The position numbers and the translations under genes were made by a program. A stretch of DNA of 35,684 nucleotides from Sphingobacterium thalpophilum (lineage in GTDB: Bacteria > Bacteroidota > Bacteroidia > Chitinophagales > Chitinophagaceae): assembly GCA_943325035.2 (NCBI GenBank), contig CALPNW020000009.1, positions 1-35,684 of the forward strand. The letters are read 5' to 3'. This document shows positions 459-10,173 of this stretch, one piece after another. Position 1 is the stretch's first letter; every line of letters begins with the position of its first letter. Below the pieces are notes generated by a model. The model was not told the origin of the DNA, did not search any database, and saw only the letters and a program-made list of their open reading frames with translations.

Positions 459-1208
459 CTAAAAATCAATGCCAATCCACTTCCGCTTGTTCTTTTCGTA
501 TTTCTCGAAGTTGAACTTATAGAGTTTACCCGGACGATGAGAAACATCCTGTTCCATTTCATTGGTATCAATCAGCAGGTCCATGGAAGCAAATTTCTTG
601 CGAAAATTTCTTCTGTCGAGCGTAACCCCCAAAATGGCTTCGTATAAGTTCTGCAACTCCCGTAAAGAAAATTTTTCGGGCAGCAAATTAAAGCCCAGCG
701 GATGCTCCTGAATTCTTTTTTGCAGCCAGCGATAACAAACATCCACAATTTCTTTATGGTCAAAAGCCATTTCCTTTAAAGAAGCAAAACTAACCCAGCT
801 GAGTTCATTATCATGAATATTCATGGCATGGTGCTGGATGTTCAGCAGCGAACAATAAGCCAGCGTAATAACCCTTCCACCCGGATGACGGTCGGGTCTG
901 CCAAATGCACGCACCTGATCTAGAAAAACATTGGTCATGCCGGTCCGTTCCTTTAAAATACGGTAAGCTGCATCGTCCAGTTCTTCGTTGTCCCGCACAA
1001 AATCGCCCAGCAAAGAATACTTCCCCTGAAAAAGGGCAAGATCACTCTTGATCAGCAATATTTTGAGCTTGCTTTCCTCGAATCCAAATATCACACAATC
1101 CACTGTCAGGGGAACTTTGGGATAAGAATGTACAAGGGGAACTGCGTCATGTATCAGCTGCTGGTCATCCACAGCCTTAACAGGATTTTTTTTCATATGG
1201 AATTTCAT
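459..1208 (-). CDS. NUDIX-domain transcriptional regulator (NrtR/AraR-like), NUDIX domain plus C-terminal winged helix
   Basis: NUDIX fold region GDFVRDNEELDDAAYRILKERTGM with degraded catalytic glutamates, followed by a wHTH-like C-terminus (FSLRELQNLYEAILGVTLDRRNFRKKF) typical of NrtR-family regulators. Confidence 0.82.
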   Translation of the reverse strand: MKFHMKKNPVKAVDDQQLIHDAVPLVHSYPKVPLTVDCVIFGFEESKLKILLIKSDLALFQGKYSLLGDFVRDNEELDDAAYRILKERTGMTNVFLDQVRAFGRPDRHPGGRVITLAYCSLLNIQHHAMNIHDNELSWVSFASLKEMAFDHKEIVDVCYRWLQKRIQEHPLGFNLLPEKFSLRELQNLYEAILGVTLDRRNFRKKFASMDLLIDTNEMEQDVSHRPGKLYKFNFEKYEKNKRKWIGIDF

Positions 1209-1265: not shown

Positions 1266-3410
<2,145 letters not shown>

Positions 3411-6235: not shown

Positions 6236-7048
6236 TCAATACCTCAGTACATCTGCTGCTGCTTCATCACTCAATAATTTCCGCAGTACCGGATGGCCCA
6301 TCACCTCCGCATAATTCATCCAGGCACCATTGATTCGGATGTACCGGTAAACCAGCCGTATACCATGGCTGTAATCTGCATACCAGTTAACATGCCCGGT
6401 GTACAGGGGTTGTATGGGATGGCCATCGGGCTTATGCCAGCCATATATGGCTACCCGGTTTGTTTTGGAGGAACGGGTCAGCTGATCACTGATGACCACA
6501 TCTTTTTTGATGCCCGCAATCAGTCCTGTTTGTCCTTTTCGCTGTGCTTCTATCAGCTGGTGATGCTGCCACATGGTTAGCGAACTGTCTCTGTAAAGCG
6601 TCATTGGAACCGGTTCCCGCTTTACAGTGGCTGCCGCATAAATATCGTTCACCATTTTACGCGTTGGTAAAAAACAGTGTAAACTGTCTGCAATTACTTG
6701 CGCTGCAATGGGTGTTAACGGAATCCTTGCCCAGTTGTTAGCAGTGCCTACACTTAAATAATCTGCCGTAACAAAATAGGTGGCTTGTATGGTTTGATGG
6801 GTTAGAGAATCGATGATGGAAACACGAACAGGCATCAACCGGTACAGGAACCCAGGCATATTGCCTTGCAGGATCCGGCTGACTGCAAAAGAATCTCTTT
6901 GTTTCCATTGCATGGTCATTGCCTGGCGGTAAAATTCTTCTCCGGTAATATTGTTGGATACCTGTTTTGGCTGCTTTAAGTGCATGACCAATGTACAGGA
7001 CATCGTGCAGGTAACCAGTGCAACAAAACAAAGACGTTGTAATATCAT
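6236..7048 (-). CDS. Hypothetical secreted or lipoprotein-like protein
   Basis: 270 aa; N-terminal hydrophobic segment with possible lipobox (LVTCTMSC); C-terminal GWHKPDGHPIQPLYTGHVNWYADYSHGIRLVYR motif looks conserved, but I cannot assign a function. Confidence 0.7.
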   Translation of the reverse strand: MILQRLCFVALVTCTMSCTLVMHLKQPKQVSNNITGEEFYRQAMTMQWKQRDSFAVSRILQGNMPGFLYRLMPVRVSIIDSLTHQTIQATYFVTADYLSVGTANNWARIPLTPIAAQVIADSLHCFLPTRKMVNDIYAAATVKREPVPMTLYRDSSLTMWQHHQLIEAQRKGQTGLIAGIKKDVVISDQLTRSSKTNRVAIYGWHKPDGHPIQPLYTGHVNWYADYSHGIRLVYRYIRINGAWMNYAEVMGHPVLRKLLSDEAAADVLRY

Positions 7049-7082: not shown

Positions 7083-8024
7083 TTATTTAGTATGCAACTG
7101 TTCAAATGCTTCCCCGATGGCTGCAATCACATCGCTGGCCAGTAAACTTTCTACCGACTGAAAACGGAGTGCACAGTTGGCCGCCTGGCCGTGTACATAA
7201 ACACCCAGTATGGCTGCCTGTTCTGCGGTATAGCCCTGTGCTGCAAATGCGGTGATCATTCCTGTCAGGCAATCGCCCGTTCCGCCCTTGGCCAATCCGG
7301 CATTGGTATTGGTATTGAACCATGCTTTGCCTTTTGCTGCAATCAGGGTATAATGTCCTTTTACTACAATTACCCAATCGTGTTGCAGTGATGCGTCCAG
7401 TGCTTTTTGCCAGCGTTCAAATTCATTGGTACTGTTACCGAATAAACGATCGAACTCTTTGGGATGTGGTGTTAAGATGGTATTTGCCGGAACCAGCTTA
7501 CTCCAGCCCTGTTGAACAGACAACCAGTTCAATGCATCTGCATCCAATACCAGTGGTTGCTGAGCCTGTTGTAACAGCTGTTCCATTAATCGGCCGGAAA
7601 CCTCATCCGTTCCCAATCCCGGACCCGCGCCAATTGCCTGGTAGTCTTTCCATAAAATGGTTTCCTGGTTTCTGTTGAGCACCATGGCCTCGGGTAGTGC
7701 AGTAAAAACAATGGCTGCTGTGTTTTCGGGTATGGCCAGCGTTAACAATCCTGCTCCGCTGCGTAAACAGGCTTTGGCAGCAAGCAATGCGGCACCCATT
7801 TTTCCGGTATTGCCTGCCATCAATAATGCATGCCCATACGTGCCTTTGTGCGAAAAGGGTTTACGAGGTTTTAATAAACCCGCCACGATGGATCGGGTAA
7901 GCAGTGTATAGGGAATGTGTACGCTGCTTAAAATAGATTCCATCAAAGCAGTTGAAAGCAAAGGACCATCCTGATGAATGAATGCATCCCAATCCTGCAA
8001 CTGTTTGATGGAAATATTTTTCAT
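7083..8024 (-). CDS. nnrD: ADP-dependent NAD(P)H-hydrate dehydratase (NnrD-type) with a short N-terminal NnrE-like remnant
   Basis: HKGTYGHALLMAGNTGKMGAALLAAKACLRSGAGLLTLAIP, GAGPGLG, LDADALNWL, LTPHPKEF, NAGLAKGGTGDCLTGMI: diagnostic YjeF C-terminal (dehydratase) motifs. Confidence 0.95.
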   Translation of the reverse strand: MKNISIKQLQDWDAFIHQDGPLLSTALMESILSSVHIPYTLLTRSIVAGLLKPRKPFSHKGTYGHALLMAGNTGKMGAALLAAKACLRSGAGLLTLAIPENTAAIVFTALPEAMVLNRNQETILWKDYQAIGAGPGLGTDEVSGRLMEQLLQQAQQPLVLDADALNWLSVQQGWSKLVPANTILTPHPKEFDRLFGNSTNEFERWQKALDASLQHDWVIVVKGHYTLIAAKGKAWFNTNTNAGLAKGGTGDCLTGMITAFAAQGYTAEQAAILGVYVHGQAANCALRFQSVESLLASDVIAAIGEAFEQLHTK

Positions 8025-8029
8025 GATGG

Positions 8030-9019
8030 TTATAATAAGCCGTTCGCGAGTAAATACTCCGCAATCTGTACTGCATTGGTTGCAGCACCCTTACGTAAGT
8101 TATCACTTACAATCCACATATTCAGGGTGTTGGCCTGTGTTTCGTCTCTTCTGATCCTGCCTACAAATACTTCATCTTTTTCATGTGCCCATAATGGCAT
8201 CGGATAGACCTGGTTGGCCAGATCGTCCTGCACGATAATACCAGGTGCAGCAGCCAGCAACGCTTTTACTTCACTCACTTCAAAATCGTTGGCAAATTCT
8301 ATATTCACGCTTTCGCTGTGGCCACCTACCACCGGAATACGAACCGTAGTGGCGGTTACACGAATGCTGTCATCTTGCATGATCTTATTGGTTTCCAGCA
8401 CCATTTTCATTTCCTCTTTGGTGTAACCGTTTTCGAGGAACACATCTATCTGTGGAATCACGTTGAGGTCTATCGGATATTTATAGGCCATTTCTCCTTC
8501 TATTCCTTTGCGCTCATTGAACAACTGATCTACCGCTTTTTTACCGGTACCCGTTACACTCTGGTAGGTGCTCACCACTACCCGCTTGATGGTATATTTC
8601 AGGTGCAGCGGCTGTAGTGCAACCACCATCTGAATAGTAGAACAGTTTGGATTGGCAATGATAAAGTCATCGGCAGTTAATACAGCTGCATTCACTTCGG
8701 GAACCACCAGCTTTTTAGTAGGGTCCATTCTCCAGGCAGATGAATTATCGATCACCCGGATTCCTGCTGCTGCATATTTTGGTGCCCACTCCAGTGAAGT
8801 ACTGCCGCCTGCAGAAAATATAGCAACGGCTGGTTTTGCTGCAATGCCATCTTCCATGCTTACCACTTTGTAGGCCTTGCCTTTAAAACTCACTTCCTTA
8901 CCTACCGACCTTTCTGAAGCTACCGGTACAATTTCTGTTACCGGAAAATTACGTTCAGCCAATACCTGCAACATTTTAGTTCCAACTAAACCGGTTGCTC
9001 CTACTACTGCTACTTTCAT
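8030..9019 (-). CDS. asd: Aspartate-semialdehyde dehydrogenase
   Basis: MKVAVVGATGLVGTKMLQVLAERNFP...IIANPNCSTIQMVVALQPLH (catalytic Cys)...VGGHSESVNIEF. Confidence 0.98.
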   Translation of the reverse strand: MKVAVVGATGLVGTKMLQVLAERNFPVTEIVPVASERSVGKEVSFKGKAYKVVSMEDGIAAKPAVAIFSAGGSTSLEWAPKYAAAGIRVIDNSSAWRMDPTKKLVVPEVNAAVLTADDFIIANPNCSTIQMVVALQPLHLKYTIKRVVVSTYQSVTGTGKKAVDQLFNERKGIEGEMAYKYPIDLNVIPQIDVFLENGYTKEEMKMVLETNKIMQDDSIRVTATTVRIPVVGGHSESVNIEFANDFEVSEVKALLAAAPGIIVQDDLANQVYPMPLWAHEKDEVFVGRIRRDETQANTLNMWIVSDNLRKGAATNAVQIAEYLLANGLL

Positions 9020-9252: not shown

Positions 9253-10173
9253 TTATCCGAGTGAGATATCAAAATTCACCAGCTGAACAAATTCCTGCAA
9301 TCTGTTATCTACATCCGTTTTGGTGATCTCTCTCAAACGCTGTGTTCCAAATTTCTCAACACAATAAGAGGCCATCGCGCTTCCGATAATGATGGCTGTT
9401 TTCATATTCTCGAAAGAGATGTCTCTGGTTTTGGCCAGATGACCTATAAAGCCGCCTGCAAAAGTATCACCGGCTCCGGTTGGATCAAATACTTCTTCTA
9501 AAGGCAATGCCGGCGCAAAGAATACTTTGCTCTCATGAAACAGCAATGCACCGTGCTCTCCCTTCTTGATGATCACATACTTTGGTCCCATTTTCATAAT
9601 GGTAGCCGCTGCACGTACCAGCGAATAATCGCCGCTTAACTGGCGCGCTTCGCTGTCGTTCACCATCAGCACATCTACTTTAGCCAGTGTTTTTTTAAGA
9701 TCGTCCATCGCAATATCCATCCATAAATTCATCGTATCGAGTACGATCAGTTTTGGACGGGTTCTTAGTTGATCGATCACGCTTAATTGTACCGATGGAG
9801 CAAGGTTTCCCAGCATCAGAAATTCGCAATCCTGAAAACTTTCAGGAACCACCGGCTGAAAATCGCCCAGTACATTCAATTGCGTTTCTAAAGTATCGCG
9901 GCTGTTCATATCCATGTGATAGCGACCACTCCAGAAAAATGTTTTCTCATCTTTTTTGATCTGAACACCTTCCAGATCTACGCTACGGGCTGTAAGCTCA
10001 TCGAGTTCGGCCTGGGGAAAATCTCCTCCTACCACTGAAATTTGTTTTACAGGTACAAAATTGGTTGCACACCAGGCAATATAAGTACCCGCACCACCAA
10101 TGATTCTATCTGTTTTTCCAAAAGGGGTTTCGATGGCATCAAAAGCCATTGAACCAACAACTACTAAAGACAT
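9253..10173 (-). CDS. PfkB family carbohydrate kinase
   Basis: N-terminal IIGGAGTYIAWCATNF and C-terminal DPTGAGDTFAGGFIGHLA PfkB signature. Confidence 0.95.
   Translation of the reverse strand: MSLVVVGSMAFDAIETPFGKTDRIIGGAGTYIAWCATNFVPVKQISVVGGDFPQAELDELTARSVDLEGVQIKKDEKTFFWSGRYHMDMNSRDTLETQLNVLGDFQPVVPESFQDCEFLMLGNLAPSVQLSVIDQLRTRPKLIVLDTMNLWMDIAMDDLKKTLAKVDVLMVNDSEARQLSGDYSLVRAAATIMKMGPKYVIIKKGEHGALLFHESKVFFAPALPLEEVFDPTGAGDTFAGGFIGHLAKTRDISFENMKTAIIIGSAMASYCVEKFGTQRLREITKTDVDNRLQEFVQLVNFDISLG

Follow-up and report, generated by a model that had tools for sequence, protein, structure and literature searches.

The nnrD-like gene at 7083..8024, on the minus strand of the window (the whole stretch of 35,684 nucleotides that was analyzed), raises two connected questions: whether the opening residues of its product are what remains of an epimerase domain otherwise lost, and whether such a remnant still matters to the protein. 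The original prediction had answered the first with an in-frame internal deletion that left the first helix of the epimerase beside an intact dehydratase, and had described the remnant as collapsed.

Gene architecture and homology of the stub

From its ATG start codon, the open reading frame (8024..7083, minus strand) encodes a 313-aa protein that, on the strength of profile matches and fold, is recognized as an NAD(P)H-hydrate dehydratase with a whole dehydratase domain and a residual NnrE N-terminus. The ribokinase-like dehydratase domain (7083..7859, minus strand) was delimited by profiles, alignment, and fold comparison, and it carries the conserved DADA, TPHPKEF, VKG, and NAGLAKGGTGD motifs. 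The predicted integrity of the domain was borne out by two family profiles scoring over their curated cut-offs, namely PF01256 over residues 67–301 (179.4 bits, cut-off 27, E 1.1e-52) and TIGR00196 (211.2 bits, cut-off 129.85). Across 35 aligned relatives, K222, N241, G248, G250, and D251 were invariant and the GG(S/T)GD motif was present; we take these five residues to have the catalytic or ligand roles familiar from the family. These observations were further strengthened by the structural model, which predicts a ribokinase-like fold (pLDDT 90.3) whose best solved matches, TM0922 and B. subtilis NnrD, are also the nearest solved relatives by sequence comparison. Between this domain and the N-terminus lies a linker (residues 31–55, 7860..7934, minus strand) defined by alignment and predicted structure, of which residues 39–50 form a strand and a helix also found opening stand-alone dehydratases.

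The stub itself comprises residues 1–30 (7935..8024, minus strand), and an in-register profile match, predicted helices, and selection identify it as homologous to the segment of NnrE (YjeF_N) made up of helix 1 and the opening turns of helix 2. The general YjeF_N profile (PF03853) gave no match to the window protein; a profile constructed on the N-terminal ~34 residues in 27 fused relatives matched it with 19.1 bits, confirming the resemblance noted at first. The same profile matched all six proteins of this architecture, with identical profile and protein positions within 1–29 and scores of 9–19 bits (the weakest, from genome G323, at 9.2), and none of the other dehydratase-only proteins matched it (best −0.8 bits). 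In a shuffle control, one of 1,000 shuffled window stubs reached 9.1 bits, and it did so out of register. Such homology to the start of NnrE speaks of ancestry only and not of activity.

Alignment with fused relatives, proposed as a check by the original prediction, placed the stub in register with the fused start and made the missing part explicit. Against the fused protein of genome G289 (locus L131), window residues 1–30 correspond to residues 1–30 and window residues 31–313 to residues 213–494, giving an offset of 182 residues (K60 against K242), that is, 182 codons missing. Since YjeF_N spans residues 26–189 in G289, a deletion of about residues 31–212 spares just a handful of residues at its start; the GNNGGDG loop and the column of the catalytic lysine (K192 in E. 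coli YjeF, PMC5938422) fall within the deletion and are missing from the window protein. The junction lies near 7935 on the minus strand, with an uncertainty range of 7925..7962, as “STxLMES” fits the sequence on either side and leaves the position uncertain by several codons. The site first proposed, 7900–7930, was roughly right, and the alignments shift it slightly.

Structure, proposed role, and selection of the stub

The window model contains helices at residues 6–17 and 25–34, predicted with moderate confidence, and a model of a fused protein places helix 1 at 6–19 and helix 2 at 24–42; confidence in the window model is lowest over the stub (pLDDT about 65 over residues 1–30 and below 50 at 19–21). 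We infer that the 30 residues fold as a two-helix hairpin, with the start of helix 2 joined to the linker, and that it is kept as a structural element that may stabilize, assemble, or shield the dehydratase. The role is the least certain part of this reading, and the selection that maintains it is directly observed, as set out below.

Residues invariant in the six stub species are S5, QLQ8–10, WDAF12–15, ST24–25, L27, and E29, and several of them are specified by changing codons (L27, for example, by TTG, CTA, CTG, or TTA). The pattern of conserved sites has also moved: T16, M28, and A31, which 19 fused proteins share without exception, are varied or replaced in the stub clade, and QLQ8–10 and T25 became invariant there. 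This shift after the loss is what lends some weight to a new role for the stub, for example as a regulatory lid, as a new interface for assembly, or in docking another protein; yet it is read from six sequences only and is also compatible with repacking of a structural hairpin, and we regard a new role as rather doubtful. The related scenario, in which the 30-residue stub was recruited after the epimerase deletion as a new element of the dehydratase and then refined by selection, would be a minority reading of much the same standing.

The structural hairpin also has to be weighed against a neutral leftover. Under a codon model with the rates of the dehydratase, the stub had an omega of 0.07, equal to that of the dehydratase, and with the local rate left free an omega of 0.28, both values being rough given six sequences and long branches. 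Synonymous divergence in the stub was 0.62 of expectation, and because of this locally low divergence the shared-rate value overstates protein-level constraint. A stub persisting only as a carrier of the start codon and translation start region would fit the low 5′-end synonymous divergence, which recurs in the same species over the first ~30 codons of asd (8030–9019; 0.44 of expectation) and pfkB (9253–10173; 0.67). This explanation is nevertheless unlikely: an omega of 1 was rejected even with a free local rate (2dlnL 20.4 for codons 2–30 and 22.1 for codons 8–30 alone), residues are invariant across six species in spite of codon changes at several, and the synonymous depression is stronger in codons 11–20 than in codons 2–10. 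The stub is under protein-level purifying selection and is not a decaying relic, and “collapsed” is a misleading term for 30 residues that are selected and whose conserved sites have shifted.

A nucleotide-level element in the stub was considered and dropped, as the starts of asd and pfkB behave alike and point to a general start-of-gene effect. All six stub genes have an ATG start codon. In G323, codon 28 reads TTA, which means that internal initiation at this codon is not conserved.

Search for a replacement epimerase

The original prediction had left the cell with either a separate epimerase or spontaneous epimerization, and had named a genome-wide search for a stand-alone YjeF_N domain as the means to decide. 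PF03853 found no protein in the window’s genome (90% complete), which holds one PF01256 protein, and none of the other five (99, 98, 96, 82, and 64% complete) had an over-cut-off match. None of the 147 genus genomes searched yielded a stand-alone YjeF_N: all but two of the 26 over-cut-off matches belong to fused frames, and the remaining two occupy frames of 175 and 130 residues, on short contigs, that are taken to be truncated at contig ends. With YjeF_N over the cut-off in none of the stub genomes and stand-alone nowhere in the genus, the epimerase appears to have been lost and not relocated. It is thus the spontaneous route, or an unknown enzyme, that survives of the two alternatives.

A separate or divergent epimerase elsewhere in the genome, restoring the full pathway, has some points in its favor, as weak sub-cut-off YjeF_N matches occur in some genomes and an unknown second epimerase has also been raised for E. 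coli (PMC5938422). We nonetheless consider it very unlikely, given that six stub genomes lack an over-cut-off YjeF_N, that the matches in the genus all lie in fused or contig-cut frames, and that the weak matches in the stub genomes are short stretches within 16–64 of the 169 profile positions.

The stub clade and loss in place

Loss of the epimerase, with its start retained, is a property of a clade. Searching the 147 genus-group genomes revealed the same stub architecture in G235, G247, G277, G335, and G323, whose proteins are 56–64% identical to that of the window. A dehydratase-domain tree unites the six stub proteins in a single clade (97/89), and eight fused proteins make up its sister group (97/92). 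A fault of assembly or binning that produced a 546-bp deletion or a chimera in a single metagenome-assembled genome (fragmented into 254 contigs and 90% complete) has negligible probability. It is refuted by these independent genomes, since the stub recurs in frame in five further species, at 56–64% identity and in one clade.

The gene order nnr, asd, pfkB, with tetR and paa genes where contigs reach, is common to the stub species and their fused relatives, which indicates that the loss happened in place. Directly upstream of the nnrD gene, with a 5-base gap, is asd (aspartate-semialdehyde dehydrogenase; 8030..9019, minus strand), a conserved neighbor in both stub and fused species. Together, the further stub species, their position as one clade among fused proteins, and the conserved gene order sustain the predicted in-frame deletion and support a fused NnrE-NnrD ancestor for the gene, from which the epimerase was lost internally and the first 30 residues were retained. 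As a separate observation, the nnrD start lies 0–5 bases after the asd stop in four of the six stub species (window 8024–8030; L126, L127, and L129), and the asd-nnr gap is 34–261 bases in the fused species measured with asd adjacent.

Apart from the window, the stub form was absent outside the genus group among the matches listed (best ~150) from 399 family genomes, and it was absent among the shorter proteins of 80 GTDB loci. Corrected for completeness, genome size is about 3.1–3.3 Mb in the stub clade compared with 3.4–3.9 Mb in the fused sister clade, which fits a loss during genome reduction, but as a single event.

Distribution of fused, stub, dehydratase-only, and gene-less states

Among the 147 genus genomes, the fused form was found in 24, the stub form in 6, another dehydratase-only form in 25, and no match to the window protein in 92; a PF01256 search added one weak match, below the cut-off. 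The dehydratase gene is missing from 53 of 93 good-quality genomes, and some of the absences will be due to incomplete genomes. About 60% of the genus group lack both NnrE and NnrD, including the complete-looking G218, G220, G222, and G225, so that known NAD(P)HX repair is absent in much of the group. In a survey of the family, 40 of 200 genomes lacked YjeF_N and 30 of these also lacked PF01256; one of the remaining ten (G088) has a weak PfkB-like match.

On its well-supported branches, the tree calls for the fused state to have changed three times or more, with no direction inferred. A grouping of G089, G221, and G336 with the stub clade was not rejected by the AU test (p-AU 0.39), and the two may share one epimerase loss. 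These three genomes (L138, L143, and L136, respectively) hold a second dehydratase-only form at the same locus adjoining asd, with a short N-terminus unrelated to NnrE. Two more dehydratase-only proteins, L159 and L160 (G257 and G217), have longer N-termini without a match to the NnrE start and form a clade of their own.

Comparison with known systems and proposed mechanism

Fused NnrE-NnrD proteins (E. coli YjeF; T. maritima TM0922, PDB 2AX3/3RT7) share the N-terminal start and the dehydratase domain with the window protein and occupy the same locus in the sister species of the stub clade; unlike them, the window protein is without 182 codons that hold the whole epimerase core, the GNNGGDG loop, and the catalytic lysine. 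The stand-alone, ADP-dependent B. subtilis NnrD/YxkO (PDB 3RPH/1KYH) likewise consists of one catalytic domain, which the fold comparison shows to be 35% identical with a TM-score of 0.86 by target length; the window protein adds to this a selected 30-residue N-terminal epimerase remnant. The other dehydratase-only proteins of the genus group (G336, G221, and G089; G215; and a small-genome clade) likewise have no epimerase in the genome, but they have no detectable NnrE remnant and branch separately in the tree. Bacteria with only the dehydratase have been described before, the dehydratase being alone in 168 of >1,600 genomes, about a tenth of the surveyed prokaryotes (PMC5938422). What is new is the retained, selected stub and a single genus with fused, stub, dehydratase-only, and no-gene states.

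Taken as a whole, the explanation we consider likely is a one-deletion origin, an S-specific dehydratase, spontaneous epimerization, and a stub kept as a structural hairpin. The sequences show a single in-frame deletion, which removed 182 codons (about residues 31–212) in an ancestor shared by at least six Sediminibacterium-group species. With the GNNGGDG loop and catalytic lysine gone, the product should no longer be able to epimerize NAD(P)HX, as judged from known active-site residues, and is probably a working one-activity repair enzyme whose whole dehydratase should, as in its family, turn S-NAD(P)HX back into NAD(P)H with ADP. As the genome holds no other YjeF_N protein, R-NAD(P)HX would have to reach the S form spontaneously or via an unrecognized enzyme. 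The epimers equilibrate spontaneously with a half-time of about 40 min, and an E. coli strain whose YjeF is epimerase-dead (K192A) shows NAD(P)HX levels close to normal; counting against this route, an in vitro assay at 22°C, lasting minutes, is reported to have detected no spontaneous epimerization (PMC5938422). The spontaneous rate may suffice for slow-growing plankton.

Spontaneous interconversion and the near-normal NAD(P)HX of epimerase-dead E. coli (PMC5938422) raise the question of why cells keep an epimerase at all. Four states among related species make the need for it testable by comparing relatives, as is its proposed second role in vitamin B6 balance, and the gene is an example of a bifunctional gene shedding a domain from inside while a selected remnant is kept. 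A link to vitamin B6 genes was tried and set aside, there being no difference among fused, stub, dehydratase-only, and gene-less genomes: pdxH is present in 22 of 23 genomes (the sole gap being G235, 64% complete), and the PLP-homeostasis family TIGR00044 scored over the cut-off in 22 of 23.

Two neighbors in the window merit mention. A 270-aa protein (6236–7048, minus strand), to which Pfam and NCBIfam gave no family match, has counterparts, among the fetched loci, in G247 and G277 only. A gene at 459–1208 (minus strand) encodes a NUDIX plus NrtR-type winged-helix protein, an architecture of NAD or sugar regulators, and lies a few genes away from ligA (1296–3410, NAD-dependent DNA ligase) and nnrD.
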